A DNA stretch of 64,000 nucleotides from Cladocopium goreaui. Taxonomy: Eukaryota > Sar > Dinophyceae > Suessiales > Symbiodiniaceae. The notes under the pieces were generated by a model, which saw nothing but the letters and a program-made list of their open reading frames with translations, did not search any database and had not been told where the DNA came from. The translations under genes were made by a program, and so were the position numbers. Location: contig CAMXCT020003746.1 of NCBI GenBank assembly GCA_947184155.2, positions 382,501 through 446,500 on the forward strand, given 5' to 3'. Below are positions 25,590 through 48,599 of the stretch, piece by piece; positions within the stretch are counted from its first letter, which is position 1, and the number at the start of each line of letters is the position of its first letter.

Positions 25590-26100
25590 TAAAAATGAAG
25601 CCACGCGAGTCGAAATTATGACGTTTTTGAATATGAACATTGGGATATCTCATGCAAAGATAGGCCCGAAAGTCAGGAAGTATCCAATCCAGTGGACGAC
25701 GATTCTGCCAGTGAGCCAGCCATATCTGTGCAATCTGTGCCGCAGAACGCACACGAAGTCACATTGACCGAAATACTTTCCGACACAATACAAACACACA
25801 GGACAGGTGGCATAAAACCACAAACCAATTTCTACCCTGTCCTGTCGTTGTCCCAACAAGGACTCCCCACTCCCCCGCCCACGCTCCGGTCGTCTAGCCG
25901 CTAGCTGGAAAATCTATGATTCATTTCGAACATGTTTTTGCCTTTCCCAAAATACAATCAGATTTGAAACGGGAGTTTTCCATTGAAACTATGATATTTA
26001 AATCCCTCATTTATAGATCACATAGGTGATTTTCCTCAACGTTGGAATTCAAAGGGGTACTTGCTTGCACCTGCATCCCGGTTACTAAGTGGGTAATAAA
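25590..26100. other. Stretch between exon island and LTR; possible further exon
   Basis: A minus frame at about 25,715-25,590 reads IWLAHWQNRRPLDWILPDFR and may be another exon, but its phase does not join cleanly to the exon at 25,465. A plus frame (25,692-25,904) is also open. Nothing else is recognisable up to the LTR. Confidence 0.3.
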
Positions 26101-26274
26101 ACTCGAAAAATAGAGGAACTAAAGTGACAAAGAAGTACTGTTTCCGCAAATGTCTGTTTTCCTCTGTCCGCTTGTGACGAAGTCTTGTGTTTACCTAGGT
26201 CGAGCTCTAGAGCCAGAACAGTTACATGGACAACAATGTACCTGAGGCATGGTAGATCATGTACCTTTCAAGTC
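26101..26274 (-). repeat. 3' LTR of the copia element
   Basis: It differs from the 5' LTR at two of 174 positions (26,123 and 26,231). A short purine-rich AGGAGAA (minus strand) lies just inside as a weak polypurine tract. Confidence 0.92.
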
Positions 26275-26319
26275 GGGTGTTCTCCTGTAAGTTGGTAAGA
26301 TGTTGTAACTGGCTCGAGC

Positions 26320-29300
26320 TCAAACTTCAGTATCTGTGCTTGCCAGAGGACGTGTCCCTCTGGTCTTCATGAATTCAGCGGGGTGTAGTCTTCGTACATA
26401 CCCCTTCATTGCACTAATTAGTTGCGACCGATCGATGGAACCTTTGGTCATTCCATCGGCTATCATGTCGCGTGTGTCGACCCAACCTAAAATGCGAATG
26501 ATCTTCGAGGTGGTCAACTGCTTAATCCATGAGATATGAGAGAGTAGTGAATTTTCCGTTGGGTATTTGAAATTTTCATTTTCCACCGCACTGAAAACGG
26601 ACCTGGCGTCTATCCAGACATAGAGTTCGATAAGGTAACCACCATTTTCTCTTAAATTTATACTGGATTGGGGGCTAAGAGGTCCGAAACATATTTCATG
26701 AAGGGTAGTTATGATTATAAAATTTTGATCAACGGATGCTGTGAGTGCCAACAGCTCAGCGGCGAATGTGCTGCGCACCACGAGCTTATGAGATTGAGAA
26801 ACGGCCTCAATCAAATGGCATCTCTTTACTCCTCTCACATCAGTGCCCATTCGAAGGTATATTGCACCTCTCAAAGCGTATCCCTTGTCATTTTCTCTGG
26901 AGAATGCTGAATCAGAATATAGCTCAACAACCCTGCTACAAGTCATTGAGCTATACTCTAATTTCTGGGGACGACGTTGAAGCTCTCGGGTGAGTGCATT
27001 CAGTCTTTTGACATGTGTAACAGTGGGGTTCTGAGTTACACGTTGGAGGGAAATTATGTAGACTAAGACCCACGCCTGTGTTAGGGCGGAATAGGCAACG
27101 GCTCCTAACAAGCTCCAATACAGCGCTCTGAGGTGCTCGGGGCATTGTGCGTCCTTCTGGAGATTGGCATAGTGCTTTGGGTTTATAGGTTTTAATGCAC
27201 TAAGGTATTCTGTCTGATCAAGAGTGATGGTACCATCTGGGAGTCTTTTATGACATATACCACAGTTTGTAAATTCACTTTCTTGATAAGTCAATTTCCC
27301 AAAGTGCCTTTCCAGGGTTTTAACCAAAGAATCTATTTCTGACTTCATACCTGCCATTTTAATATCATCTACATGAACGGTTATGGCTAAGACTAGGGTT
27401 TCTTTCTTATGTAACATTAACAATTGGGGGTCATACAAAGATGCTCGGAACCCTAATTCCTTGAGGATGTTGATTAGCCTCAAGTTGAATGCTCTGGGAG
27501 CGTCTCTACAGCCAGTGCCAGGCTTCAAGCATTTGAGAGCTTCCGTTCGCTCATCAAAATCCTCATATCCTGGGATCCGTCTGAGATGTTTGGCTGTTCC
27601 TGCCGGGACGGTAAAGCTTATGTGTTTCTCGGGCTCTCCAGTCAACTTGTTCATCTCGGAAAAGGTAAGCCCTTGAAGAAATGCTTTACTTATGTCCACA
27701 GCGACAAAACTCCAATCTTTGTGGCAGGCTGCTTCACTGGCTAGAATCTTTTGGGATGTTCTTTGCGCAGTGGCCGAGAAGTTCACCTCATCTTCGGTTT
27801 GCGGTTCCTTGAACCCTCGCAAGGCCAACCGCATCCTGATGATGCGCTTCCCGTCTACATACTTCCACTTAGAAACTAGCTTGGCGTCGATCAGAACTTT
27901 ACACTTCTTTTTGGGGATTCGTTCAAAACAACCATATTTATGCCAGGTTTCATACTCCTTAACTGTTGCTTCATCAACTTCCTTGCGATGGTCAATTAAT
28001 TCCTTAGTTGTGAGCAAGTCAGTATCTCTCTCAATGACTTCTTTCTTAGCTTCTGCATTAAGGAATACTTTCATTAAATTGGGTTTAGACACATCGCGAC
28101 TGTCTTGGAAGCATTCAGTGATGTTTTCTGAGATCAACACTTCAAGGAATGGTTCATCATTTTCATCAAACTCAAAAGTGTGATCATACTCATCGAAATC
28201 TGGACTAACTGTTGGTGGTATTGAATCCCAATCATTATGGTTGTCTGGACTTGTAAAATAACACCAATCATCTTTAATCTCCACATCTGCTGCTTCATCT
28301 ACTGGTTCGTTGAGAACTACCCAGCACAGCTCCTTGAGATCACTTTGGATTTCTTTGGGAGCACCTTCGAAGTGTTGCAAGTACAATGCTTCAACCTCTG
28401 GAGAGTCAATGCTAACTTGAGATTCCTCGGCGATCGTACTGAGCCGCCCATCACTACGACCCACCTCGATCTCTCGATCGAGATGCGCCATAGCCGACGG
28501 ACGGTCCAGCACTCTCTCCTCAAAATCATCAAGTGTCATCCCGACGTCTCTGTCTAGCATAAAACACTGCATTGTTGCGACGAAGGGCTCCTGTGGGCCA
28601 AAGATTTTGTTGATGTTTTGTCTCGGATGATCGGCAACATGTATGAGCATTGCATCTGGGTTGTTCATGTTCCAATTGAAAATCACATTGCGGTATCTGT
28701 CGTTCAAATCTTGCAGCTGTTTGATTTTATGTCCAATTCTTACAGTGCAGATATCATCCATCTGGAGGGAGTTTGTTATGATGAACTCTAGTGCTTTTGA
28801 AATTTTGGGCCATCGCTTGGTGGTTCTCGTCAGTCTGTCATTTACATACCCAAAAACTTCAACACGGCCATCAGGGAGTTCATTCAGAAATTGATGGATG
28901 TATTCCATGGCGTTCAAACAGATATCCGCATTGGTGTGTCCATAAAGAGAAACTGTTGCATAGTATTGTGCTGGGCGTACATCTTGGAGGCGATATGGTC
29001 TGGTCTGTCCATTTATTTTAAGAGCTACAATGCCATCTGCGGCTACACACTCTACGACTTCATATGGACCGGTCCAGCCACTCATGTCTTTGCTCGGGGG
29101 CGTTCGGTATAACTCTACCAAGTCTCCTTTTGCAAAACGGTTTTCTCCCGACAAGGCAGTTTTGGACCCCAAAGCTCTTTTGATACGAGATGCACTCGTG
29201 GCTGAAACCATAGACTGCAATGCAAGTTCGCGGATGCGAGCATCAACTCTCTCTTCCAAGCCGGCGTTGTCAGTGATTGGCGGAAGGCAAGCTGGCTGTC

Positions 29301-32241
29301 TTCCCATCACTACCTGGTAGGGTGTAACTCCTCCTACATGTGTTAGTGCGTTACCCATAAAGACACTATTGGCAAGTAATGATGGGAAGTTGATGTCAAT
29401 ACCTTCTCTTATGGCTTGGGATTCCATCACATGCATTGCATGTCTTAAGATCGCTCCTCTCCTCTCGATGTACCGAGCGTGTTGGTCCTTGCCTCTTACC
29501 TTTAAGACTACACCCATACGCTTCAATCTTGCTTCAGCGCTGGATGAAGTCAAACCAGCTTCACTGTCGGTGACAAGCTGTTGAGGTGGGCCAAAGATGG
29601 ATACCCATGCTGTGTGGAAGTTCGTGATTAATTGGTCTTCTGTTTTGTTAGGAGTTTCCACAGCAACATGCCATCTTGTCGCTCTGCAAATAAAGTGATG
29701 TACAACAAATTCTCGATAGAACATCAAATCGGTTTCTACTACTTCGTTAAAGTTCATGGCCAAAGAAACAGAGGGTTGAGTATCTTTGGCTTTTGGTGCC
29801 CACTTGCGGCATTCACGGCAGGTTGAAATGATGTCAGGAATGTAGCTTATGACTTCTTCAGGTATGCCTGCATTTCTTAAAACGCTAGTCATGTTGGTGG
29901 GTCCTGCATGCCACCATCTTAAATGCAGCTTCCTGAGTGTTCGAATAATTGTTGGTTCATGACTACTTCTCAAGTCTTTGAGACTATGAGTGACATCAAA
30001 TCTAGACCAGTCAGATGGATGTTCACTGCCTGCGGCCGCATCCCGGAACTTTCGATAAGGGCCTCGGAGTCTGCTCTCGGCGGGTTCGCCGTCATCTGGA
30101 TTGTAGGGGACAATCCTATCTTCTACTGGAGGTGCTGCCCCTACGGCTGAACTACTGGCAGCTCCTTCACCGGCTCCCAAATCGGTTCCATCAGGCAGTT
30201 GGGCCTGAGAGTCTTGAACCGGAAGTTCATCAGCCCGCTTGGCTGGTTCTCTGGGATGGTGGCCTTTTCGATGAATGCCCTTACGGTGAGCTATGGTCAT
30301 GTGTTTGCACTCACCTTGGGCATAAGTATGTGAACTGTCACCAGCAGGTTTCATTTTCTTACATCCAGGGCATGTCCATATTACGGGGGCATCTAAAGGA
30401 TATTTACATGTGTCAGGGTCACGAGTGTGCCGTGGATCATTCCTATTTAGATGTCCCTTGCATCCTGGACAAACTGCTGGTCTCTTATCTGGATCTTCAG
30501 CGGGTTCACTGCTTGGCTCGGATGCATCAGTGCTCGTGCCGATAGTTGGATAGGCATACTCTCTGGAGTTGACCAGTTCTCGAAGGTTGGTTATTCCGTC
30601 TACTATAGATGTAGCTAGTTTCCATGCCCACAGTTTACAATGGCTAGCTTTCCCTCCTTCGAGTAATTCATGTTCATGACTTCCATCACAAACATACTTT
30701 GTCAATGGTTCTAAGAGAGTCCTATGGTTAGCGATGAATCTCGTGGGTTTCTTAGCTGGTCCTCCATCAGGGCCCTTTTGGCCTGTCATGCATTGGTGAA
30801 TCACTATGCTGACAGTAGTAGACAATTTTAATACTTCCTGCCACTCGGATTCTTCCCAAAGCTTTGATGGATGTGGTTGTTCTGTTATAAAGAATAAACC
30901 CATCTTTTCAACAAGTAATGCAACACGTCCACAAAATTTTCCATGAGGTCGTGCATAATCCAAACTTCTTTTCCATGACTCCCAATTGACATGTTTAACC
31001 ATATTTGACATGGGTCCATAAGGTGTGCACGTGGGTGCCATGATAGTAACCAATGGTTTGGATTCCTTTATATACTTGATGACTTTGTTTTGATTGGATT
31101 CATCATTCAAGTCACATGAACATATGATGTCAAAGTTGTCTCCAGCTCTCAGTCCTCGGCGGATGGCTACTGTGGTGCATCTGGCTTCACCACCGCAAAT
31201 CTCAATGACATCTAAAGGTGACGAGTCGGCGCTGGCTTGAATCAATGCATGCTCGAGTGATTCAGATTGGCGTACTCTGGAATTGGCATAATTGGTCATT
31301 AAGAAAAGGGCTAAATCTTGGGGGGCTAAGTTATCCTCTTCCATTACATGGGGTCCTAATCCACTAAGATCATTGCCGCAGTCGTCGTAGTGATCCTCAA
31401 TGACAAACTTGCGTTTCTTCGGATTGTGCTTGCCCTCAGCTTTGAGCTTCTTCTCCTTTTCTTTCTGCTGAACTTTCTGCCAAGTGGGATATGCATCCTG
31501 CTGATCCTCTCTTATATGTTCATCGATTTCACGGTCGACCGGCTGGTCTGTACCGTGCAAGTCGGGTGTTCCCTGTGAAGTTGAAGTGCACACCTCACCC
31601 ATGGGATCAATCATCATCTCGGATGCACATTCTTTGAGTACGGCTAACGATATGGAGCGCATGGCATCACATCGCTGCTTGTCACAATATTCTTTTAACC
31701 AGTCCATGTAATGATTGGTCACTTCACATTTACATGAGTGACTGACAATGGACGGTAGACAAAATGACAAGGTCACGATGCATGCACTGGACGGATGCTT
31801 GGAGGAGTGGTCTACTTTCAAACTGAAATGGCATAACCTATGGTAGCACTTCTTCCAGTGTTCGGTCTTGGCAACTTGTTCAATGCCGGGATGTCTCCAA
31901 ATTCCGCCGAAAGCTCCAATCAGGACACAGAAGGTGTTTGACTCCTCGGATGCTAGCAGCAGCTGCCTCACCTCTTCTAAACAAGCACTATACTTATCAG
32001 GAGGGATATGCTTACCTCGAATGGGGGCATTTATCCAAACAAATTTATAGTGGCCGAGCCTAATGTTCTTCGGTGCTTGATGTTTGGTGTACAAGATGGT
32101 CCGAGGGTCAATAACATCTACTTCATATTGGTGTCGTTGAAAATAGGCTGGTACATCGTGATGTTCATCAATGATTAGGGCCTTGGTCGGTGGTTGGAAT
32201 AGTTCATCATCTGCCAGGTATGCGTGTGTAGTTACTGGTCC
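26320..32241 (-). CDS. pol: Copia Pol polyprotein: Rossmann/methyltransferase-like, integrase, reverse transcriptase, RNase H
   Basis: The frame is open from just inside the end of gag (32,241) to a stop at 26,320, with no ATG near its start, so it is probably made by -1 frameshifting from Gag. In order (nucleotides): a Rossmann-like piece with ALIID then FVWINAPIRG (32,180-31,970); a methyltransferase-like domain with VIEICGGEARC (about 31,210), APTCTPYG (about 31,030) and FITEQPHP (about 30,880); cysteine pairs CPGC at about 30,465 and 30,370; integrase zinc H-x4-H (LHLRWWH) and CREC; integrase core with D in VETDL, D in VTDSEAG and E in ERRG; reverse transcriptase with VAVDISKAFLQG and VHVDDIKMAG; RNase H with YSDSAF, AAELLAL and DTRDMIADGMTKG. 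All catalytic residues of the copia enzymes are present. Confidence 0.92.
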   Translation of the reverse strand, partial: GPVTTHAYLADDELFQPPTKALIIDEHHDVPAYFQRHQYEVDVIDPRTILYTKHQAPKNIRLGHYKFVWINAPIRGKHIPPDKYSACLEEVRQLLLASEESNTFCVLIGAFGGIWRHPGIEQVAKTEHWKKCYHRLCHFSLKVDHSSKHPSSACIVTLSFCLPSIVSHSCKCEVTNHYMDWLKEYCDKQRCDAMRSISLAVLKECASEMMIDPMGEVCTSTSQGTPDLHGTDQPVDREIDEHIREDQQDAYPTWQKVQQKEKEKKLKAEGKHNPKKRKFVIEDHYDDCGNDLSGLGPHVMEEDNLAPQDLALFLMTNYANSRVRQSESLEHALIQASADSSPLDVIEICGGEARCTTVAIRRGLRAGDNFDIICSCDLNDESNQNKVIKYIKESKPLVTIMAPTCTPYGPMSNMVKHVNWESWKRSLDYARPHGKFCGRVALLVEKMGLFFITEQPHPSKLWEESEWQEVLKLSTTVSIVIHQCMTGQKGPDGGPAKKPTRFIANHRTLLEPLTKYVCDGSHEHELLEGGKASHCKLWAWKLATSIVDGITNLRELVNSREYAYPTIGTSTDASEPSSEPAEDPDKRPAVCPGCKGHLNRNDPRHTRDPDTCKYPLDAPVIWTCPGCKKMKPAGDSSHTYAQGECKHMTIAHRKGIHRKGHHPREPAKRADELPVQDSQAQLPDGTDLGAGEGAASSSAVGAAPPVEDRIVPYNPDDGEPAESRLRGPYRKFRDAAAGSEHPSDWSRFDVTHSLKDLRSSHEPTIIRTLRKLHLRWWHAGPTNMTSVLRNAGIPEEVISYIPDIISTCRECRKWAPKAKDTQPSVSLAMNFNEVVETDLMFYREFVVHHFICRATRWHVAVETPNKTEDQLITNFHTAWVSIFGPPQQLVTDSEAGLTSSSAEARLKRMGVVLKVRGKDQHARYIERRGAILRHAMHVMESQAIREGIDINFPSLLANSVFMGNALTHVGGVTPYQVVMGRQPACLPPITDNAGLEERVDARIRELALQSMVSATSASRIKRALGSKTALSGENRFAKGDLVELYRTPPSKDMSGWTGPYEVVECVAADGIVALKINGQTRPYRLQDVRPAQYYATVSLYGHTNADICLNAMEYIHQFLNELPDGRVEVFGYVNDRLTRTTKRWPKISKALEFIITNSLQMDDICTVRIGHKIKQLQDLNDRYRNVIFNWNMNNPDAMLIHVADHPRQNINKIFGPQEPFVATMQCFMLDRDVGMTLDDFEERVLDRPSAMAHLDREIEVGRSDGRLSTIAEESQVSIDSPEVEALYLQHFEGAPKEIQSDLKELCWVVLNEPVDEAADVEIKDDWCYFTSPDNHNDWDSIPPTVSPDFDEYDHTFEFDENDEPFLEVLISENITECFQDSRDVSKPNLMKVFLNAEAKKEVIERDTDLLTTKELIDHRKEVDEATVKEYETWHKYGCFERIPKKKCKVLIDAKLVSKWKYVDGKRIIRMRLALRGFKEPQTEDEVNFSATAQRTSQKILASEAACHKDWSFVAVDISKAFLQGLTFSEMNKLTGEPEKHISFTVPAGTAKHLRRIPGYEDFDERTEALKCLKPGTGCRDAPRAFNLRLINILKELGFRASLYDPQLLMLHKKETLVLAITVHVDDIKMAGMKSEIDSLVKTLERHFGKLTYQESEFTNCGICHKRLPDGTITLDQTEYLSALKPINPKHYANLQKDAQCPEHLRALYWSLLGAVAYSALTQAWVLVYIISLQRVTQNPTVTHVKRLNALTRELQRRPQKLEYSSMTCSRVVELYSDSAFSRENDKGYALRGAIYLRMGTDVRGVKRCHLIEAVSQSHKLVVRSTFAAELLALTASVDQNFIIITTLHEICFGPLSPQSSINLRENGGYLIELYVWIDARSVFSAVENENFKYPTENSLLSHISWIKQLTTSKIIRILGWVDTRDMIADGMTKGSIDRSQLISAMKGYVRRLHPAEFMKTRGTRPLASTDTEV
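32232..32241 (-). promoter_or_regulatory. gag-pol overlap, possible -1 frameshift site
   Basis: The pol frame opens right after an in-frame TAA at 32,244-32,242, and gag stops at TAA 32,234-32,232. Only ten bases are shared, and pol is in the -1 frame relative to gag. No classical X-XXY-YYZ heptamer is present. Confidence 0.5.
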
Positions 32242-35200
32242 TTACCCCGTGGTCTCAGTGATCTCACTTCGGACGTCATTCTGACCTCACCTTCTCCCCA
32301 TCCAATTCTCACCCTGGCTTTAGCCTTAGGAGGATGTTCACTTGTTTCAGGGGTCCACCCTGGTGGTGGCCCAGGCGGTTCCTTCGGCTGCATTGGTGGA
32401 GGTCCAGGGGGCTCTTTTGGTGGTGTCACTGGTGCCCTCATGGATGAGGATGGTTCTGCTGGGGGTTCCTTTAACATTGTTCCTGATTCATTAGGGGCCC
32501 CAGGTCTAGGTGGAATCGTTCTAGGAGGTCCGGCTAAGTTAAGAGGGACTGTCGGGGTAGGTACCTCCACCGGCATAGACATGCCTTCAATCCCCACGCT
32601 CATGGTCACCCCAGGCTCCGGGGCCTTTGGAGGTGGTGCCTTACTGGCCGGCGTTGCGCCGGTAACAGTGGCTCCCACCGACCCCCGTGGTGGTCCCTTA
32701 GGCACTGGGCGGGGAACTCGCCTCAGTGCTTTGGCTTTTGCCGCCACTTCGGTGCCGCTAGAGGGTGACCTAACAGGAGATGGTGATTTACTTGGCGTAA
32801 TGCGCGGTGATGTGTGTGATGCTGTTGCTGTTGTTGCTGTAGCAGTGTCCGTGGCTCTTCGTGTTCTTGTAGCTGGTGTTGATGGTTTTGGTGCTGACTC
32901 CTTTGCTCCTGGTGTTGGCTGTGATTGAGGTGTAGCGGCTTTACCTGCCCCGCGCCACGTTCTCTCTGTGGTGGCTTTGGGGCCAGGTGTGGTGGTTGTA
33001 GTTCTTGATGGTTCGGACCGTGTTGGCATTGCTCCCGTCTCTGCCTCCGTAGGCGACCTTGGTCTATTGATAGGTCCTGGGGCTTTTGCCATTGGTAGTT
33101 TTGGTTGTGATGATGGTGTTGGTGCTGGTGATCGGGCTGGCGTTGATTGTTCGGGAGTTGCTGTTGCCGCTGGCTTCGCTGGTGGTGGATGATGTTGCGA
33201 TGGCATCGCCGGAATTGGATGTGGTGGTTGTGATGGTGTTGGTGTCGGCGGTTTTGCAGGTGCTGTTGTTGCGATGGTTGGCGTTGCTGCTTTTGCTGGT
33301 TGTGTGGGTGTTGACATGGTGGTTGTTGGTGCTGCTGTTGCAGGCTCACCAAGTTTCGCCGGCATGGCCTTGATCGGAGTCGTTGCTTTGGCTGTGTCTG
33401 ATTCTGTTGTTGCTGTCATCACTGTTGCCTGTGGTGTTAGATATGTTGGAACTGCTGCTACAGTCGCTTCAGGTGGTGGTGCTGGTGGAAATTCTGTGCT
33501 CTCAGTAGGTGTTGGCATCGATGGTTGAGCTGGTTCTGCTGATGGTGGTTCTGCTTTTGGTATTGGTGATGGTGGTGCAGGTGTTGGTGTTGGTCTTGGT
33601 GCTGGAGGTGGTTCTGATGATGGTTGTCCTGTCTTTGGCAGTGGTGGTGGTGATGCAGGTGATGGGGTTGTTGATGGTGATACTGGAGATGGTTGTCCAG
33701 TTCGTGTTGCACTCCTGGCTGGGGCTTCTGTGGATGATCTGGCAGGTGCTTCTGCTGGGGTTTCGGGGACATCTGCATACGGATTATCACTAGGGGCTAC
33801 GCCAATGGGAACATCTGGAGTTTCTTGGTACTGACGATTCATATGGCTATATAACCCATAGACTGTTGGGGGTAAACCTCCACCTCTCCTGGGAATGCTC
33901 TGGAATGCGTCGGTCCTAAACACAAGATGTCCGCTGGGAGCCCTCTCTAGTGGAATATGTATCGCGTCCGCACCCCAGCTAATGGTATAGCTACCCGTGG
34001 CTGTGAGGGTGAGCATTTCCCTGCCAGGTGCCATTTCCAGCATGGCGTTGTGATTGCTCATGCTCCTCAAGCCAAGTAGTGCCGGGAGGTCACGGCCCTC
34101 CCCTTCTACCATGGGGGTTTCGAAGTTGAATGATACAGATTCGCCCCTAACCAAATGACCCTCACCTTCTTCCGGTTGAGAGCGGGGGTGGATGATGTTG
34201 GGTATTGCTATCGGCAATGTGGCAACATGCGTACAGCTTTGGGTACCCTGTCCTACTCCCCTGACGGCCATTGGGTTGGTCATGGACTTACGCGTCGACC
34301 TCAAGCCCGCATTCCGCGCGGCTGTGGCTTGGCGTTCAGCCCATTGCTGACCTGCTAGATTGGTCCATGCCCCTGGATCAACTACAATTGATTGATGACC
34401 AGGCACTTGGGTGGATGAATGGTATGTGGATGCGGCTCCAGTTGCCTCTGCCATCTCAGGCCACCATGGAAAAGTGGGTGTCCCGTGTGGTGTCCTAAAC
34501 TCATCGTGTTGATCTGCTCTTGGAGATGTGGGTGCCAAGTAGCGATAATGTGCAACTACCTGTCCCCCACCGCGGCAGCATGGGCATGTTGGATTTTCTT
34601 CCCTCAAAAGAACTTCAGTCCAACAATTTTCATGGAAGGTATGCCTGCAGGTCAATCGCACCAGTTGTTCTCCTGCACTATATTCTTCCAAACAAATGCT
34701 GCAGCGGTGTTCATCCCCTAAGTATTCAACATTGGGTTGTCCGACATTTGGAGTTACCATGGGTTCTGTGGGATTATTCGAGGGTGTTACTGTGGGGGCC
34801 GGATTCACCTCACTCCTCGAACCTTCCGATTCACGAGTCCTCATCTCCTGCAGTGTCATCATCGTCCGGTGCTGATGATGAAGAGCACGTACCTGCGGAT
34901 GATTGAATGCTGGCTCACTGACCCTTTCTGATACTCTAGAAGCTATTGGGATCTCACGCAACTGGTTTGCTTGATGAAATTCCCCCACAACTTGACTACG
35001 GATCGTGTCAAGTGTGCTGATAGCATTCTCTGAGACAATCGGATGATAGGTCGGTGCACGCACTTCCGAGGCAGTCCCCTGCAAGAAATTAAACTCGGGC
35101 ATCAATGCCCATCCTGGCAACTCCGGGGTCGGATGTTGTAGGATCACTGTTGGGATCTCCCCTGGTCCCACGATCAGTGGGTGTTGTGGCACTTCGTGCC

Positions 35201-37745
35201 GATGGACCGGTGGTGGTTGCATTGGTGGTGGTTGCGTGGCGTGGGCGACATATGGTTCTTGGATAGTAGTCGATTCTGCAACAGGTTGCTGTAAAAATGG
35301 TTCGCTGGTTACATTTCTGCCCTGTGGATTAGTGGGGTTATTCTGGGGAAGATTATTCATTGGATTAGTGGCTAGTGGGGTGTTATGGGTAAATTGGTTC
35401 ATCATTGGCGGTCCAAAAGATCGTGGTTCTGTGGTCGGATGCATCAGGCCATTCAGGCCATTGAAGACACTCTGCATGTACAAGGATTGATCGGCCATAT
35501 CCACTGCCCGGGTCGTGCGCGGCAGTGGTGGCATTGGATTCACAATCCCCCCAATGACCTGTCTCCCAGTCCTGCTCTCGGTGTACCGCCTCCAAGGATC
35601 ACTATTGGTCCACGGGTCCTGAGGTGCTGCTGGTAATGTGGATGCATTGGATGGGGGTCCACCAGAAACTGTCGACCAATGATCAGTTCCGGATTCTTGT
35701 CCAACATTAGCATCTACTTCATTGACCATGAGGACCGTGGTTGATGTGATTACACCTGGGGGAATCTGGTCGGCGGTGTCCAAGTCTACGAACAAGTTCT
35801 GAGACGAGTCATTGGTTGCAGCCCGTCTTGGGCACTTGGCAACCAGATGATCTTCCGAACCACATTCGTGGCATCTCATCTTACGTCCATCCGGGCCTCT
35901 TGGATTGCCCTTTCTGCCCTTACCCTTGCCACTCCCTGCCCCTTTCTTTCCACCTTTTGCCCTAAAGGCATGGAAAATTTCCATGAGCTGGGATTCATTG
36001 AGTTCGGACAAATAAGATGAAGTATTGATGATCTTGCCTTTGGGTTTTCCATGTTTTGATTTACCACCCTTTCCACCTTTGTAGATGGCTCTGCGGGCAA
36101 ACCTCCGAGCTTTTCGGGTCGGCTTGCCCATGAATGACCTCCAGCGTGCCTTAGCACGAGAATAGGCCCAGTAGAGCTCGGCAGCCTGCTCATTGGCCGT
36201 GGCACCCTCAGCAGCTGGCCAGGCTTCTTCGCCATAGTCACTGCTGGTGTCAGTGTCAGTGCCACTGTCACCCTGGCCCTCTGACAAATACACGTATGGA
36301 TCTTGCGGCTGTGTATAAGTGGGGTATGCTTCGGGTGAATGCCATTGGGATTGCCAAGAACTCGGGTCGTGCCATGAGCTACTGGGTTGGTCATTCTGAG
36401 ATGTGAATACATTTTCATTCCATGACTGCTCGTCCTGAATATGGTAACTGTGTGTTGGATGTTGTCTACCCCGCAACATGTTGGACATGTTTCCTGGTGC
36501 ATTTTCAATGATCCTACCCATACGTCTGATGGAGTCTTTCAACCCTGTGAATTGCTGCTCATCAGCAGGGAGAGCACCACCGAGTGGCTGTAGAAGTTGG
36601 ATCAATTGAGAATCCGAGACACCTACGGCACGGATCAGCAACCAAGAAAGACCAGCATAGCTCAGGGCGAGCCCACCTGTCTCTGCCGCACGCATGCGGG
36701 TAGTATCAAACCTAGTCAGCAGCATGTCGATCCTTTCATTGGATTCCCTTCCAAATGACAACAGATCTCCTACTGCCCCTAGCCGGACTTCCTCACCGAG
36801 CCTGGCAAATCGGGTGCTAAGTTGATACATCAAAAACGTTAGTGGGTCGGTTTGGGTACCATTTACGGTCCCCCCTGTCAGAATGGTCTGCGGCGGAAGT
36901 GTTCTGCTGAATTCCCTGGCTGATCTCTGCAGTTGAGAAATCACACTAGCCGCCTTTCGAGATGCATCCCCATCTGTAGCAATGCTCCAAATTAAGATGT
37001 CCCTAGACCAAGTACTGAAGCTATACTGATGCTCCATTTCTGGGCTCCATGCGGGGGGCAATCTTGGATGGTTACTCCTTCCTGGCACCATGCAAGCCAC
37101 TAATGCACATGTGCTAAGGCCGCCTCCAGCGGCTAGCAATAGTGTCGAATCCGAGAGCGATCTACCATCACGGTGACCAGCGGTCATCGAACCCGAATTG
37201 CCATGGGCTTCAGGAGACTTCACCTTCCGATTGCCTGCTGTGGATCCGGTCATGCATTGGTTCCTGGATCTAATGGCTGCATCTTTCCCATAGACCAGCT
37301 CACAGAGTTCCTTGTGACGAGACTTCAGATGTTTCAGCTTAGAGTCGTACATGTTTAGCATTCTTTCAAACACTAATCTCTGCTGCCGTCTGAGTCGCCT
37401 ACGCAAAAGCTCTGCCCTACGCTGATCCCGAGGGTTCGTTTTGAACTTCCTCCTTGAGTGGTGCAGCCGCACCAGGGTCGAATTCAGCTCCTGCCTCCAC
37501 TGATCCCCATTCACCAGACTGGGCTTGTACTCGCCTTCGGGCCTGGCCTGTACTGGGGCTTTGCGACCATTGCTCGCTGCATACCAGTGTGTAGTGACAC
37601 TGATCGAGCCTGCCCCAACCGTACTGGACTGGATCACAAGAGCGCTGGTATTGCGACTCTTGATCACCAGCCCAGTACTGGCTGAGACAGACCCCACCAG
37701 TGCCACCACTAACACGGCACACAACTTCAGCACGGCGGTGAACAT
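32232..37745 (-). CDS. gag: Giant Gag polyprotein with zinc knuckle, RING-H2 and protease-like region
   Basis: I start it at ATG 37,745, giving 1,837 residues; typical copia Gag is a few hundred. Residues 1-24 (MFTAVLKLCAVLVVALVGSV then SAST) look like a signal peptide. A copia Gag-like helical region follows (about 220-440, with YSFSTWSRDILIWSI). Near residue 622 is a C-x2-C-x4-H-x4-C knuckle (CHECGSEDHLVAKC). At about 1,013-1,055 is a RING-H2 finger: CSIC, then CRHTFHENC, then CPCC. At about 1,122 VDPGAW resembles the retropepsin D-[ST]-G site but with proline. The last 500 residues are a Pro/Thr/Ala-rich low-complexity tail. The frame has no stops. Confidence 0.88.
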   Translation of the reverse strand: MFTAVLKLCAVLVVALVGSVSASTGLVIKSRNTSALVIQSSTVGAGSISVTTHWYAASNGRKAPVQARPEGEYKPSLVNGDQWRQELNSTLVRLHHSRRKFKTNPRDQRRAELLRRRLRRQQRLVFERMLNMYDSKLKHLKSRHKELCELVYGKDAAIRSRNQCMTGSTAGNRKVKSPEAHGNSGSMTAGHRDGRSLSDSTLLLAAGGGLSTCALVACMVPGRSNHPRLPPAWSPEMEHQYSFSTWSRDILIWSIATDGDASRKAASVISQLQRSAREFSRTLPPQTILTGGTVNGTQTDPLTFLMYQLSTRFARLGEEVRLGAVGDLLSFGRESNERIDMLLTRFDTTRMRAAETGGLALSYAGLSWLLIRAVGVSDSQLIQLLQPLGGALPADEQQFTGLKDSIRRMGRIIENAPGNMSNMLRGRQHPTHSYHIQDEQSWNENVFTSQNDQPSSSWHDPSSWQSQWHSPEAYPTYTQPQDPYVYLSEGQGDSGTDTDTSSDYGEEAWPAAEGATANEQAAELYWAYSRAKARWRSFMGKPTRKARRFARRAIYKGGKGGKSKHGKPKGKIINTSSYLSELNESQLMEIFHAFRAKGGKKGAGSGKGKGRKGNPRGPDGRKMRCHECGSEDHLVAKCPRRAATNDSSQNLFVDLDTADQIPPGVITSTTVLMVNEVDANVGQESGTDHWSTVSGGPPSNASTLPAAPQDPWTNSDPWRRYTESRTGRQVIGGIVNPMPPLPRTTRAVDMADQSLYMQSVFNGLNGLMHPTTEPRSFGPPMMNQFTHNTPLATNPMNNLPQNNPTNPQGRNVTSEPFLQQPVAESTTIQEPYVAHATQPPPMQPPPVHRHEVPQHPLIVGPGEIPTVILQHPTPELPGWALMPEFNFLQGTASEVRAPTYHPIVSENAISTLDTIRSQVVGEFHQANQLREIPIASRVSERVSEPAFNHPQVRALHHQHRTMMTLQEMRTRESEGSRSEVNPAPTVTPSNNPTEPMVTPNVGQPNVEYLGDEHRCSICLEEYSAGEQLVRLTCRHTFHENCWTEVLLREENPTCPCCRGGGQVVAHYRYLAPTSPRADQHDEFRTPHGTPTFPWWPEMAEATGAASTYHSSTQVPGHQSIVVDPGAWTNLAGQQWAERQATAARNAGLRSTRKSMTNPMAVRGVGQGTQSCTHVATLPIAIPNIIHPRSQPEEGEGHLVRGESVSFNFETPMVEGEGRDLPALLGLRSMSNHNAMLEMAPGREMLTLTATGSYTISWGADAIHIPLERAPSGHLVFRTDAFQSIPRRGGGLPPTVYGLYSHMNRQYQETPDVPIGVAPSDNPYADVPETPAEAPARSSTEAPARSATRTGQPSPVSPSTTPSPASPPPLPKTGQPSSEPPPAPRPTPTPAPPSPIPKAEPPSAEPAQPSMPTPTESTEFPPAPPPEATVAAVPTYLTPQATVMTATTESDTAKATTPIKAMPAKLGEPATAAPTTTMSTPTQPAKAATPTIATTAPAKPPTPTPSQPPHPIPAMPSQHHPPPAKPAATATPEQSTPARSPAPTPSSQPKLPMAKAPGPINRPRSPTEAETGAMPTRSEPSRTTTTTPGPKATTERTWRGAGKAATPQSQPTPGAKESAPKPSTPATRTRRATDTATATTATASHTSPRITPSKSPSPVRSPSSGTEVAAKAKALRRVPRPVPKGPPRGSVGATVTGATPASKAPPPKAPEPGVTMSVGIEGMSMPVEVPTPTVPLNLAGPPRTIPPRPGAPNESGTMLKEPPAEPSSSMRAPVTPPKEPPGPPPMQPKEPPGPPPGWTPETSEHPPKAKARVRIGWGEGEVRMTSEVRSLRPRGKDQ

Positions 37746-37844
37746 GATGACAATCAATGGAGTAAGGATGAAAAGAAAATGAAAACAGTCGAGTCGACCC
37801 TTAGGGTATAGCAGATACCTTAAATGGGGGTTACTGCCGGGGTT

Positions 37845-37860
37845 CCCGGCTCCGCTACCA
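37845..37860 (-). promoter_or_regulatory. Primer-binding site
   Basis: Directly inside the 5' LTR the minus strand reads TGGTAGCGGAGCCGGG. The TGGTA(T/G)C(A/G)GAG form is typical of copia sites complementary to the 3' end of initiator Met tRNA. It fixes the LTR edge at 37,861. Confidence 0.75.
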
Positions 37861-38034
37861 ACTCGAAAAATAGAGGAACTAAGGTGACAAAGAAGTACTG
37901 TTTCCGCAAATGTCTGTTTTCCTCTGTCCGCTTGTGACGAAGTCTTGTGTTTACCTAGGTCGAGCTCTAGAGCCAGAACAGTTACATGGATAACAATGTA
38001 CCTGAGGCATGGTAGATCATGTACCTTTCAAGTC
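37861..38034 (-). repeat. 5' LTR of the copia element
   Basis: On the minus strand it begins GACTTGAAAGG and ends TTTTTCGAGT. It carries the promoter of the element by position. It lies 41 bp downstream of the stop of the beta-hydroxylase-like gene. Confidence 0.92.
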
Positions 38035-38075: not shown

Positions 38076-39626
38076 TCATAAGGAGTCACCCATCTTCTTG
38101 TCGCAATGGAGCGGCAAAGCAGAAGAATCCTGCGCTGAACTTCTCCAGTGCAAGTCGCAAGGATGACAAATCCACGCGAGCAAGATATAACGAGCCTCAA
38201 TCCCTCGATGACGCACCCCGTGGAAAAATGTATCATCAAACACCACTGCTTTGCCTTCGGACCAAGTCACCGTTTCGTTGGCTACCCACATCTCTGCACC
38301 AGGTGGTGTTATCAATCCCAGGTGAATTGCTAAACTTGGCTCTGTGGCAAAGTGGGGTTTTATTTCAGAGCCCGGAAGAAGTCGCGCAAAGGCAACCCCG
38401 GCATTGGGCACGCGCTCTGAGAAACAGTGCGCATTGATTTCAGGACGCTCTTCCAACAACGCACAGCTTTGCGGAGTGTAAGGACATACTGCAGTGCGGT
38501 TGCCTTGGCGGATCAGATCCAGGAGGCCCCAGTCTTTCGGAAGTGGAGTAAACTCTGTTTGTTGTTCCTGCACTGTTCGGAAAAGCTCATCGTAGTCCAT
38601 ATCAGCAAGTATCAATCTATCAAGTTCAGCACGGAAAATGTGGGCATGTTCTTCCAGGAAGTTGGCAAGGGGTGGCCACGCAGAGCGCGGCCAAACTGGC
38701 CAGTGCTGGGAACTGCGCAGAAGATCATCGTTGTGATTGGCCCTGTAGGGACCTTGACCTGGAAGCAAGCTTCGATGGTGTGCGAAGTAGGGCAACATCC
38801 GCATCGTCTTGAGGTGTGCCTCTGCCAAACGGAAGTGCTCAGCAGCACCCTTCAAATCTTTATAAGCTGCCAACTGCTTGGCTATTTCCACCAGCAACAG
38901 TAGTACGAAGCGCCAGCGCCACGGGCATTTCCTTGCTTCAAATTCTATTTGAGCTATGCCCGGTGAAGAACAGCTTCCAGCCACGCTGGCCGTGTGCAGG
39001 CTGGCAGACAAAGATACAATTTCGATACTTGGACCTAGAAGCCGGTTGTCTTCATCATCTGGCGGGTGTAAGCCCCACCAAAAGTACAGGAAAAGCATTT
39101 GGCCCACACCAATTGCATATTTGAAGTGGTCAGGGCTGGCCAAGCTGAAGCTTGCCAATTCTTTCAGCTGCTTCAAAGTTGATGCCCTCAACTGGAGATC
39201 ACTCGCCAAATAAGGTGGATCTTTCTTCGTGTAGAGCCCTTTCATCCAGGCTGCTAGCAAGCCAAAGCTTAGCTCTTCTTCGTTGGTAGCATCTCCACGC
39301 TGATTTGACTCCCACAATTCATGCACGCACTGAGGTAGAATCTTGATGCACTCGTCCATTTCAGTCACTCCTGCTGCAAGCGTGCCTCTGGCAATGCTCA
39401 ATTGCAGTAGTATGAGGACTAAAGTTAGCATCTTTGCAATATTGCCTGCAGTGCTGAAACCTAACCCATCAATCGCTGGAATTTCACTTCCCAATACGGA
39501 TGTCACACAGGCATAGCCACATGCAAAGCTGGCTTGATCTGGCGTGGCTTGAACCTTTTCATCTCGCAGCATGGGCATTAAGATCCAAGTTATGATGTCT
39601 GATGCACGGAAAATTATCATCATCAT
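38076..39626 (-). CDS. Aspartyl/asparaginyl beta-hydroxylase-like 2-oxoglutarate dioxygenase
   Basis: A single-exon frame of 516 residues starts at ATG 39,626. The C-terminal 130 residues match the aspartyl/asparaginyl beta-hydroxylase fold: SEIKPHFATEPSLAIHLGL, then VVFDDTFFHGVRHRG and the following arginine. The iron ligands would be His425 and His469, with Arg479 binding 2-oxoglutarate; all are present. A hydrophobic stretch at about 66-80 (LTLVLILLQLSIARG) suggests a membrane anchor or signal, as in ER-type enzymes of this family. The middle is helical (FRLAEAHLKTMRML). The substrate cannot be told. Two further Met codons at the start leave the exact start open. The copia 5' LTR begins 41 bp past the stop, which may affect its 3' end. 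Confidence 0.85.
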   Translation of the reverse strand: MMMIIFRASDIITWILMPMLRDEKVQATPDQASFACGYACVTSVLGSEIPAIDGLGFSTAGNIAKMLTLVLILLQLSIARGTLAAGVTEMDECIKILPQCVHELWESNQRGDATNEEELSFGLLAAWMKGLYTKKDPPYLASDLQLRASTLKQLKELASFSLASPDHFKYAIGVGQMLFLYFWWGLHPPDDEDNRLLGPSIEIVSLSASLHTASVAGSCSSPGIAQIEFEARKCPWRWRFVLLLLVEIAKQLAAYKDLKGAAEHFRLAEAHLKTMRMLPYFAHHRSLLPGQGPYRANHNDDLLRSSQHWPVWPRSAWPPLANFLEEHAHIFRAELDRLILADMDYDELFRTVQEQQTEFTPLPKDWGLLDLIRQGNRTAVCPYTPQSCALLEERPEINAHCFSERVPNAGVAFARLLPGSEIKPHFATEPSLAIHLGLITPPGAEMWVANETVTWSEGKAVVFDDTFFHGVRHRGIEARYILLAWICHPCDLHWRSSAQDSSALPLHCDKKMGDSL

Positions 39627-42600: not shown

Positions 42601-44060
42601 CACCAGAGTCCATTGTCCAGGAAAAAAAACATCTATATAATATATCAGTCTATCAGCATCTATCAGTGCATCTATCATGAGCTGAGGGTGGCACGGCATT
42701 GGGCCCTGAACGGGGCCAATGTTGAATGAGAAGACGACTCGCCTCACATTCCAGGCACTGGCTGGCACTGGCTGGCACTGGCTGGCAGCTGCAGTACATG
42801 TGGTTTCCTCTTTGCCAAAATGTCAAAGATGTAACGGGAACGACCAAGCAGACCACAGCGGCGGGGTCCCTTTCGAGTCAGGATTGGTCCTTGGCTCAGA
42901 CTGAATTCAAATGGAAGACGGTCAGACGGGCTCTGGTTCCTTCAGAGGTGGTGATCTCTGGTGATCTCTGGTGACTCTGTATGACTTCAGGATTCAGTCG
43001 TAAGCTGCTTGCTGCGGAGCCGTCACTGTTGCCATGTGACTAAGCCAAGACCTAGTTGTGCTGGGGTTGCAAATGCCACTTGCAAAAAGGCGGCATGCAC
43101 AACACAAGATGTGAAGAGTTCTAAAGCCTCACTGACTGTGTAAAAGGACCATAAACAGAGAACAAGTGCAACAAGTACAAAGACGGAGATCATTGAATCA
43201 CGAACATCATTCCAATTGGAACACTGTCCCCATTTAGACGCTTCAGATGTCACACTTCATGCGGTGTTTGCAGGGTTTTGACTCTCTCACCCTTGTGCCC
43301 CTCACAGTCCCTTTTCCCCACAGGAAACACATCTCCCAAAACGGGGATTCACTGGAATCACCTTCAGAGTGCAGCATTGCTATCTGAGAACACCTTCAAG
43401 TTTCTGTAAGACAAGGGCCTTGGGGGTAACATATGATTCCCAATGATTATAAACTATTGTCAGCCGGGACACTGCCACTTGCAACTGCAAGCTCTATGCA
43501 CTTCATCCAAGGCCCACCCCGTAAGGCATCCAAGGCCCACCCCGTAAAGTGCATGTGCGAGTTCATTCAAGTTCATGCGAATTCAAATCAACATTTACAT
43601 GCCGCCGTATCCCACTAAAATCACAGGGTAGCATCAATAAAGTGCCAGCGGAGATGAATGCTAGCATGCCCCCACCCCACCCTCAGCCAACCTCTCCCCA
43701 TCCCACCCCATTCGTGAGCACGTTTACAGGTTCCGATTAGCGTTGACATGCCCCACCCGAGTCAACGCCACCCAACCGACTTGCGGCATTGAGTACATAT
43801 GCATGCTTAGTGCTGAAGTAGCGAAAAAAAGAAGGATGCATCCATGATCATCCATGATTCCTTCCATTATCTGACAGTCAAACAGAGATGCAATCTGTTA
43901 CCCTCCTCTCCGTTCAGGCTATATAAAGGAGATACTCTCCGAAGGACTCTGATAGCCCGGAGGAAAGTTTCAGCAACAATTGCAATGACAAAATTGACTT
44001 GAATCACCTCATATAAAATAGGTCAAAACATGACTATGGAGGAAATGAAGATTGAAGAAG
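39627..44060. other. Non-coding or unresolved stretch
   Basis: No frame on either strand is convincing. A minus frame near 40,620-40,500 contains a hydrophobic segment (VWKLAIVAALLGSLTVPWF) that could be an exon. A family-C MITE remnant lies at about 42,130-42,255 (GGGGTTTACAAACCAACTT). A small CTGGCTGGCA tandem occurs at 42,755-42,790. Confidence 0.35.
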
Positions 44061-44065
44061 ATTTA

Positions 44066-45521
44066 AATATACATACATACATACATACAAACATACATTA
44101 CATACACACATACACACATACACACATACACACATACACACATACACACACACATGCACACATCCACACATACACACATACACACATACATACATACATA
44201 CATACATACATACATAAAATACCATACCATACATTACATTACGTTACATTACATTACATACATACCATAACAAACAAACACACAAACATACATACATACA
44301 TACATACACATTACACTACATAACATTGCATTGCATGGCATTGCATTGCAAAACATTACATTACATTACATTACACTGCATTACATTACATTACACTACA
44401 GTACATTACATTACATTACATACATTACATACATTACATACATTGCATACATTGCATACATTGCTTACATTGCATACATTGCATGCATTGCATACATTAC
44501 ATACATTACATACGTTACATACATTACATTCATTACATGCATTACATACATTACATACTTTACATACATACCATCCAATACCATACATAGCACACATAGC
44601 ATTCATACCCCCACAAAACGCACAAAACATACATAACACACAAAACACACATAACAAACAAAAATAACATACATAACATAACAAAACATAACAAAACATA
44701 ACACAACAATACTTAACAAAACATAACATAACATAAACACATACATACATACATACATACAAACATTACATTGCATTACCTTACATTACATCACATCACA
44801 TTACATTACACTACATTACATAAATACATACATACCATACATACCGTTACCATACATACCATACATACCATACATACCATACATACCATACATACCATAC
44901 ATACCATACATACCATACATACCATACATACCATACATACCATACATACATACATACATACATACATACATACATACACACATACATACGTACAAACATA
45001 CATACATACATACACACACACATACATACATACATACATTCATACATACATACATACATTACTTACTTACATACATTCTTTACATACACTACTTGCATAC
45101 GTGCATACATACATTACATGCATACACTACATACACATACACACACATACATACATACATACATGCATGCATACATACATACATGCATACGTTACATTAC
45201 ATTACATTACATTGCATTGCATTACATTACGTTACATTACATTACATACATTGCCTACATTACATTACATACATTACATTACATACATACATTACATACA
45301 TACATTACATACTTACATTACATTACATTACATTACATCACATTACATTACATACATACATACATTGAATACATTACATTACATTACATTCCATTCCATT
45401 ACATTACGTTACATTACATACATACATACATTACATACATTACATTACATACATACATTACATACATACATGACGTTACATTGCATTGCATTACATTACG
45501 TTACGTTACATTACATTACAT

Positions 45522-45554
<33 letters not shown>

Positions 45555-46365
45555 GCATACATACATACATACGTTACATTACATTACATTGCATTGCATT
45601 ACATTACGTTACGGTTTGTTACATTACATTACATTACATTACATACATACATACATACATTACATACATTACATTACATACATACTTTACATATATACAT
45701 TACATACATACATTACATGCATTACATTACATTACATTACATTCCATTACGTTACATTGCATTACATTACATTTACATTTACATTTACATTTACATTACA
45801 TTACATTACATTACACACATTACATACATACATTACATACATTACATTACATTACATTACATTACATTACATTACGTCACATTACATTACATTACATACA
45901 TACATACATTGAATACATTACATTACATTACATTCCATTACATTACGTTACATTACATACATACATACATACATTACATACATTACATTACATACATACA
46001 TTACATACATACATGACATTACATTGCATTGCGTTACATTACGTTACGTTACATTACATTACATTATTTACATACATACATACATACATACATGCATACA
46101 TACATACATACGTTACATTACATTACATTGCATTGCATTACATTACATTACATTACAATACAATACATTACATACATACATACATTACATACATTACATT
46201 ACATACATACTTTACATACATACATTACATACATACATTACATGCATTACATTACATTACATTACATTACATTACATTACATTACATTACATTACATTAC
46301 ATTACATACATACATTACATTACATTACATTGCATTACATTACATTACATTACATACATACATAC
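44066..46365. repeat. 2.3-kb array of ACAT/ACATT repeats
   Basis: The array is a mix of (ACATAC)n, (ATTAC)n and (ACATACATT)n blocks, with higher-order duplications: a block around 45,350-45,720 is repeated near 45,890-46,240 with few changes, including TACATTGAATACATTACATT. Long open frames on both strands are artefacts of the repeats. Confidence 0.95.
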
Positions 46366-46369
46366 ATGA

Positions 46370-47085
46370 CGGTTTGCCAACATGTCTTTTCCGGTTTGGG
46401 TTGCTAAATCGTAATTCCTTGCGTGCGGCTTCTTGGCTGGTCTTTCAAACCATGGCTTACCTAAATAGCCTGAAACTCTGCATTTGATCTTTCATGTTTG
46501 AAGACGTAGCTGCGTAGCTAAGACCAGCAGTAAATGCTAGCGCGCGTCTATATGAAGTGGGTGCCGCTGCTAGTTATTAGTGGGTGCGGCTGCTAATTTT
46601 TAGTGGTGGAACTAGAATATCTGCAGGGCTGTCACTGTTGATTTTTTCAACAAACAGGATAAACTACAAGTTCTCTGGTGGCGGCTGGGCCAAGGGTCAA
46701 CCAAAACCGTTTTTTGAAACTTTTGCTGGCGCAATGCTAGCGCGGATCTAGCAGGTAAAATTACGTACAAATTTGCAAAATTGAGCCACAACCGGAAATT
46801 GTTGAGTAGCAAAGAAATTCACTAAGACATCCTTAGGTTTAAGGAGCTAAGTTACATCCTGACTGTTCTTCATGTTGAAAAACAAGCAAACAGGACACAC
46901 AAAAAGAATTCTTGAACATGGGTGTTGAAAAAAACTAGCGCAAACCTAGCGGGTTTGCTAGCCCTGCCTTGCAGGATTGGTGAATGTAGTTGCGTGCCGC
47001 CTGACAACGAAGAGGAAAACCACTAGGTCCACACCAATTAACAACAACTAGTACTAAATGCCTGTCAGCTATTTGTGGCAAAGGG
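46370..47085. other. Unique spacer between two satellite arrays
   Basis: About 700 bp of ordinary composition has no supported gene. It contains several CTAGCG-type words (GCTAGCGCG at 46,536, 46,735 and similar near 46,935). Confidence 0.4.
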
Positions 47086-47087
47086 TC

Positions 47088-47702
47088 ACATACATACATA
47101 CATACATACATACATACATTACATTACATTACATTGCATTACATTACATTTACATTTACATTTACATTTACATTTACATTTACATTACATTACATTACAC
47201 ACATTACATACATACATTACATACATTACATTACATTACACTACACTACATTACATTACATTACATTACCATACATACATACATACATACATACATACAT
47301 ACATACATACATACATACATACATACATACATTACATACATTACATACATTACATACATTACATACATTACATTACATTACATTACATTACATTACATTA
47401 CATTACTTACATGCATACATTACATTACATTACACTACACTACATTATATTACATTACATTACATTACACTACATACATACATACATACATACACACATC
47501 ACATACATTACATAAATTACATACATTACATACATTACATACATTACCTTGCCTTGCCTTGCCTTACCTTACATTACATTACATTACACACATACATACA
47601 TACAAACATAAATACATTACATTACATTACGTTACGTTACGTTGCGTTACGTTACACTACATTACATTACATTACATTACATACATACATACATACATAT
47701 AT
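47088..47702. repeat. Second ACAT/ACATT array
   Basis: The units are the same as in the 44-46 kb array, including the (ACATTT)n block seen there at about 45,765-45,800. The two arrays probably share origin. Confidence 0.95.
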
Positions 47703-48599
47703 TTGTTCAAGCCCCGACCAACTTGCTGAAAGTTGGTCACAGTCAAATGCTGATTGTGGTACGGAGGCCCGGCAGCTGCTGATGGCTGGGCATCTTGCGG
47801 AAAGAAAACGAGGTCACCGGATCTGCCAAACAGAGTAACAGCCCGCGGTCTACACATGACCACAGCAAGGGAAAATCGTGCCTCGGAGAGTGAAAAAAGG
47901 ACCTCCCAAATGGTGGGCTGTGTCCTCAAGTCAGCTAGGGTCACCACCGTCACTTCCGGTCCAAGCTAGACAAATCAGCTGCATCCAATTGTTACAAGAT
48001 CTTGCAAGCTGTGGCAGCTATGGTGAGCTGATGAATTGCAAGAGGAAACCTCTCGGATCCCCGAAGCGAAGTTTCCCGGCAGCTTCACCCGCCTCTCAGC
48101 TGCGCAGATGCGCAGATAGTAGTGCCATGGTGTGACACTATGTGTGACCAAACTTGCAGCCAGCGGCTTTGCTCGAAAAAGGGTGAAGAAAAACACCACT
48201 ATCACCGTGACAATAATCACAACAAATACTTCAAGCAGCTCCCAGCAGGAGCAGCTTCTGCCACTTTTCATGACTCTTCGGCCAAGCTCATCAAAATGAG
48301 CAATTATCGCCGCCTTGTCTGCCTTAGCTTGTCGAAGGAAGTTTGGAAGTCAAACTTCCGACAATATGCACAGATGAAAAGCAGAGATGGGAAGAGTCAG
48401 CGAAGAGAAGAGAAGAGAAGAGAAGAAAGAAGATCAAAAAAGAGAAAGTCTCAGAAGAAAGAAGATCCAGGTGCGCAAAAAGGTAGGAAAGTCGTCGCAA
48501 AACGCTGTGTTTTACGAGTGATTTGTGGCTCTGGAGGGTCGGAAAGTAGGCTCGCTAAAGCGGCGGGTCCGGAGCCATGTGGTCAGATGAGAGGTGAAA

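Follow-up and report, generated by a model that had tools for sequence, protein, structure and literature searches.

Does the Pol protein of a dinoflagellate retrotransposon carry its own cytosine methyltransferase, and, if so, what might that enzyme act on? The question is raised by a copia-type long terminal repeat (LTR) element in a stretch of 64,000 nucleotides from Cladocopium goreaui (assembly GCA_947184155.2, contig CAMXCT020003746.1, positions 382,501 to 446,500), referred to below as the window. Here we describe in its Pol a compact domain with the predicted fold of C5-cytosine methyltransferases, and we favour, by a modest measure, the reading that it methylates the nucleic acid of the element itself, most likely complementary DNA (cDNA), before integration.

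The original prediction placed three methyltransferase-like motifs in Pol, and their coordinates were confirmed within an intact open reading frame (ORF) at 26320-32094 on the minus strand (Table 1). It also called the motifs degenerate, which holds for the copy in the window. C5 enzymes usually have a proline beside the cysteine of motif IV and an asparagine after the glutamate of motif VI; here the two dipeptides read T-C and E-Q, and we do not file the domain as a canonical DNA methyltransferase (DNMT) for this reason. Both Pro-Cys and Glu-Asn are present in six relatives.

An AlphaFold2 model of Pol residues 276-517 (predicted local distance difference test, pLDDT, 88.8) takes the form of a compact C5-cytosine methyltransferase domain with an S-adenosylmethionine (AdoMet) methyltransferase core of the C5 type. 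Two structure comparisons against the PDB agreed on this class specifically, with 50/50 and 49/50 of the matches listed being named C5 or DNMT structures, and the fold proposed for the segment from its motifs is borne out by the model. About 25 residues separate the KKPT strand from the helix at position 205 of the model, the region where a target-recognition domain (motifs VIII-IX) would lie.

Searching with Pol residues 240-620 returned 15 proteins, one of them near-identical to the window, and a search from the protein P0013 added four; these 19 long relatives and the window form a 20-row alignment (A1). A third search, with the A1 profile, yielded 43 further proteins that were shorter or more distant (E <= 1), giving a 64-row alignment of 62 proteins (P0051 as two pieces) and the window. 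Domain positions C81 and E130 correspond to Pol C356 and E405. Only 16/242 positions of A1 are invariant, including E23, G26, G27, P79, C81, E130 and P132; because both putative catalytic residues fall among them (hypergeometric P 0.004, 20 rows), the motifs are more than a chance likeness. Across the 64-row alignment the cysteine is kept in 47/48 covering rows, the exception being P0048, a fragment of 129 residues, and the glutamate in 60/60; their correspondence to motifs IV and VI follows from order and position, not from superposed coordinates. A pattern scan matched both motifs in 11 of the 15 proteins, with a spacing of 52 residues every time; accordingly, neither the cysteine nor E-x-P is scattered at random across related Pol proteins, and both hold fixed positions.

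The surroundings of this pair have changed far more than the pair itself. When residue states were counted in the 37 rows covering positions 25, 30, 81, 130 and 131, six rows had the combination F/G/P/N, that is, canonical motif I, PPC and ENP. Another six combined F with T, L or S, followed by P and Q (PPC with EQP), and 22 carried C/R; in these the position preceding the cysteine was T, V, E, C or M, or was gapped, and position 131 was Q in 20 rows and H and N in a single row each. The remaining three were mixed. The window copy belongs to the C/R/T/Q group, and its clade has PTC and EQP. C81 and E130 were retained in 37/37 rows. Because the substitutions largely travel together while the catalytic pair stays, an active site that was altered and remains in use appears to fit better than decay.

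Some sequence support came from phage enzymes, and none from the standard profile. PF00145 (DNA_methylase) matched 0/20 members at a scan threshold of E <= 5, where HMMER filters drop most matches above 0.1. At E <= 5, two PHROG families described as DNA methyltransferase matched 6/20 and 2/20 members, with best values of 1.3e-4 and 3.5e-4, both from P0012. We also compared A1, and a set of eight mostly canonical relatives (A2), with a phage Dcm-like C5 family represented by ten named records out of 1517 matching (A3); PF00145 recognises 3/10 of these phage members at E <= 1, the lowest value being 0.013. Aligned by hhalign, A3 and A1 gave E 0.0013 at a probability of 18.5%, with P-x-C and E-x-P in register, and A3 and A2 gave E 2e-4 at 46%. 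The score of the phage profile against A1 exceeded that of 200/200 column shuffles, and its scores against integrase, reverse transcriptase and RNase H were lower.

How might such a domain serve the element? It would be synthesised within Gag-Pol and, because of its place in Pol, would probably be packaged in the virus-like particle with integrase and reverse transcriptase. There it would bind AdoMet, C356 together with E405 would catalyse methyl transfer, and the nascent cDNA would be methylated in the particle ahead of integration; a Cys/His-rich module downstream could provide nucleic-acid binding. The benefit may be that a new copy would enter a heavily CG-methylated host genome with matching methylation in place, and a similar benefit was argued for DIRS elements in PMC5890265.

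Several observations weigh against this proposal. The structural matches are modest in quality, with Foldseek TM-scores of 0.33-0.50 among the best 50 of 1075 matches (E <= 10), and a target-recognition domain appears to have little room. The segment has no Pfam or NCBIfam match, two other PHROG matches seen singly are weak (0.009 for P0017, 0.025 for P0019), and the sole sequence-profile match in the PDB is DNMT2, at E 0.46 with the 20-row profile and at a still weak 0.098 with an 8-row profile led by canonical relatives; the window sequence alone found only two unrelated PDB chains (E 1 and 1.6). To the substitutions beside the cysteine and glutamate must be added those of motif I, where C, A and R in the window copy stand in place of the F, G and G of canonical relatives. 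CpG depletion, considered as a trace of self-methylation, was not clear beyond background: the observed/expected ratio is 0.59 in the element against 0.54-0.65 in its flanks, and 0.48 in the methyltransferase segment. Finally, PMC5890265 reports that the DNMTs of SymbioLINE and KnitGypsy produced no methylation in a yeast test, a result called inconclusive there.

Pol also appears to contain a second, N-terminal copy of the fold that lacks the catalytic cysteine and glutamate. The prediction is of moderate confidence, lower than that for the methyltransferase domain; its nearest structure is DNMT3L, and C5 enzymes are mixed with unrelated folds among the 50 Foldseek matches listed. With motif positions assigned via strand order, the motif IV cysteine is absent from 6/6 covering rows and the motif VI glutamate from 7/7. 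An attempt to prove from sequence that this domain is a duplicate of the methyltransferase domain did not reach significance (hhalign E 0.25; 17/200 shuffles reach the observed score), and the claim of a second fold therefore rests on predicted structure. DNMT3L stabilises and steers DNMT3A, and the N-terminal domain may do the same for the putatively active one, the differences being that it is fused in cis to its partner and has 9% sequence identity to DNMT3L. A bolder scenario, which we advance tentatively and consider doubtful in its entirety, is that of a copia lineage with an inactive/active pair fused in cis (DNMT3L-like and DNMT3A-like) that methylates its own cDNA before integration, its copies entering the genome already marked. 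In the clade of the window the pocket would then have been remodelled around a Cys-Glu pair left intact, possibly to suit a different target or chemistry, and surveys with PF00145 would miss such a lineage.

The main rival is that the C5-methyltransferase fold no longer methylates and has become a nucleic-acid-binding or assembly module of Pol, binding, for instance, genomic RNA or cDNA. The non-canonical motif I, PTC and EQP of the window clade speak for such a scaffold, as does the second predicted fold upstream, whose missing catalytic residues suggest that inactive versions are tolerated; yet the catalytic pair is retained even though the residues beside it vary, and PPC with ENP is kept in six relatives. 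We judge the scaffold rather unlikely. Still less probable, in our assessment, is an active domain that, like DNMT2, acts on RNA (genomic RNA or a tRNA primer). Its compactness, which seems to leave hardly any room for a region that recognises DNA targets, would suit that role, the one weak PDB sequence-profile match is to DNMT2, and Dnmt2 is found among the best 50 of the 1075 Foldseek matches, but structures of DNMT3 and M.HhaI rank above or beside it among the matches listed. That the motifs arose by chance in an unrelated spacer of Pol, or that the fold is not that of a methyltransferase, can be rejected despite the missing Pfam and NCBIfam matches, given the confident and C5-specific predicted fold, the near-invariant Cys and Glu, the canonical motifs in six relatives and the phage C5 profile that outscored every shuffle.

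Judged from its conservation and largely congruent trees, the domain was apparently acquired once, early on, and then inherited mostly together with Pol. When each region is compared in the relatives that span 70% or more of it, the methyltransferase domain has a median identity to the window of 42% (n=19), integrase also 42% (n=19), reverse transcriptase 41% (n=16) and RNase H 40% (n=15), against 33% (n=16) and 17% (n=17) in two spacer regions. Between the window Pol and the near-identical P0001 there are 39 aligned differences, one of them within the 211-residue methyltransferase core. In trees of 17 rows (P0004, P0007 and P0010, which are without reverse transcriptase and RNase H, were dropped), the methyltransferase domain shares 11-12 of 14 splits with the other domains, and integrase shares 14/14 with reverse transcriptase. 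The segment is fixed in place ahead of the Cys/His-rich module and integrase in related Pol proteins. Searches of viral contigs and prokaryote genomes for a donor, with one to six short patterns each, gave no confirmed relative, and phage tblastn matches were not significant (E 0.7). One related Pol, P0011, also has a dUTPase domain (PF00692), placed by eye between the N-terminal part and the methyltransferase domain.

Retroelement methyltransferases are already on record. PMC5890265 describes DNMTs from elements of the LINE, DIRS and Gypsy types, found with Pfam profiles such as PF00145: SymbioLINE-Dnmt, SymbioDIRS-Dnmt3 and KnitGypsy-Dnmt3, from Symbiodinium and Klebsormidium, likewise have a C5-methyltransferase-like domain in the frame of a retroelement, conserved like its reverse transcriptase. 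The present element differs from these in its copia domain order and in its 0/20 matches to PF00145. The same paper states that the Copia superfamily, the most abundant retroelements of Symbiodinium, is without any DNMT domain, and the fact that PF00145 misses all 20 members here may explain that statement. Against novelty stands one sentence in PMC12344493, which places some DNMT3 members in LTR Copia and DIRS elements and cites PMC5890265 (2018); the latter assigns them to Gypsy rather than Copia, and the portion consulted contains no account of a Copia element of this kind. Among the open-access papers listed, no title or opening of an abstract mentioned a methyltransferase in a dinoflagellate Copia Pol.

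Among known enzymes, the small phage Dcm-like C5 methyltransferases (A3; compare PHROG 2882 and 757) are similarly compact, at about 206-244 residues as retrieved, and have F-P-x-C, ENP and a K-x-T stretch ordered as in the Pol domain; they are free-standing genes, and the hhalign probabilities given above mark the distance. M.HhaI and DNMT3A/3B have the predicted core fold in common with the Pol domain, and the order of catalytic Cys and Glu is identical, whereas sequence identity in the alignments is about 10-16%, the target-recognition region appears nearly absent, and the window copy has motif I, PC and EN changed. Should the family prove active, and dinoflagellates prove to be its hosts, the most common retroelements of those algae may also carry methyltransferases unseen by the standard profile, and a candidate source of the unusual genome-wide CG methylation of the host would have been overlooked. 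The inactive/active tandem would then be an independent counterpart to the pairing of DNMT3L with DNMT3A.

Table 1. Coordinates of the copia-type element and of the features in its reading frames (window positions)
Feature	Position	Strand	Basis
Whole copia-type LTR element, 11,935 bp	26100-38034	-	175-nt direct repeats flanking, 2 mismatches
5' LTR, 175 nt	37860-38034	-	Direct-repeat comparison
3' LTR, 175 nt	26100-26274	-	Direct-repeat comparison
ORF1 (Gag-protease), 1841 aa as listed	32232-37757	-	ORF list
CCHC motif of ORF1	about 35823-35876	-	Pfam zinc-knuckle matches below curated cut-off
RING finger of ORF1	34572-34706	-	Pfam zf-RING_2, 5e-9, above curated cut-off
DPGA protease-like motif of ORF1	34326-34385	-	Read by eye
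Pol reading frame; opens at 32241	26320-32241	-	ORF list and frame inspection
N-terminal domain of Pol (predicted C5-methyltransferase fold; catalytic Cys and Glu absent)	31600-32241	-	Structure prediction
C5-cytosine-methyltransferase-like domain, Pol residues 276-517	30544-31269	-	Alignment and fold prediction
Motif I equivalent DVIEICGGEAR (putative AdoMet site)	31180-31212	-	Alignment
APTCTPYGP (motif IV region)	31012-31038	-	Sequence
Codon of candidate catalytic cysteine C356 (motif IV, APTC)	31027-31029	-	Alignment
TEQPHPSKL (motif VI region)	30859-30885	-	Sequence
Codon of candidate catalytic glutamate E405 (motif VI, EQP)	30880-30882	-	Alignment
Cys/His-rich module, two CPGC pairs, between methyltransferase domain and integrase	30241-30483	-	Aligned in 19/19 relatives
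Integrase, HHCC region and core	29278-29949	-	Pfam rve 3.5e-6, below curated cut-off; catalytic motifs visible in alignment
Reverse transcriptase	27214-27990	-	Pfam RVT_2 3e-6, below curated cut-off; HVDD box in alignment
RNase H region (presumed)	26416-27111	-	Place after reverse transcriptase and conservation

The element belongs to the Ty1/copia type: LTRs are present, and the Pol order of integrase followed by reverse transcriptase is clear though the Pfam scores lie below cut-off. The region after reverse transcriptase is one that we take to be RNase H. The opening of Pol and the end of ORF1 share 10 nt, read in different frames, which suggests a -1 frameshift. The Cys/His-rich module is as conserved as integrase, received no Pfam name in the scan of the window Pol, and probably binds zinc. 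At its inner boundary (37849-37860, minus strand; TGGTAGCGGAGC) the 5' LTR has a sequence that resembles a site where the 3' end of initiator tRNA-Met would pair as primer. No target-site duplication was seen flanking the LTRs at positions 26100 and 38034, despite their near-identity, and recombination or misassembly is possible.

A RING (E3-like) domain within a Gag-protease ORF is unusual, and that of ORF1 sits upstream of the protease-like motif. ORF1 as listed starts with a hydrophobic stretch (37671-37757, minus strand) that by eye is like a signal or membrane segment. Directly upstream of the element, an ORF of 516 residues (38076-39626, minus strand) has a C-terminal part that looks aspartyl/asparaginyl beta-hydroxylase-like by eye. 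The spliced-leader sequence had 0 matches in the window at up to 3 mismatches. Farther away, ORFs at 55122-60334 (minus strand) resemble, by eye, pieces of a RAD50 homologue, and long low-complexity reading frames of simple repeats occupy 44771-46369, within a region of strong GC skew (-0.46 in 44001-48000).

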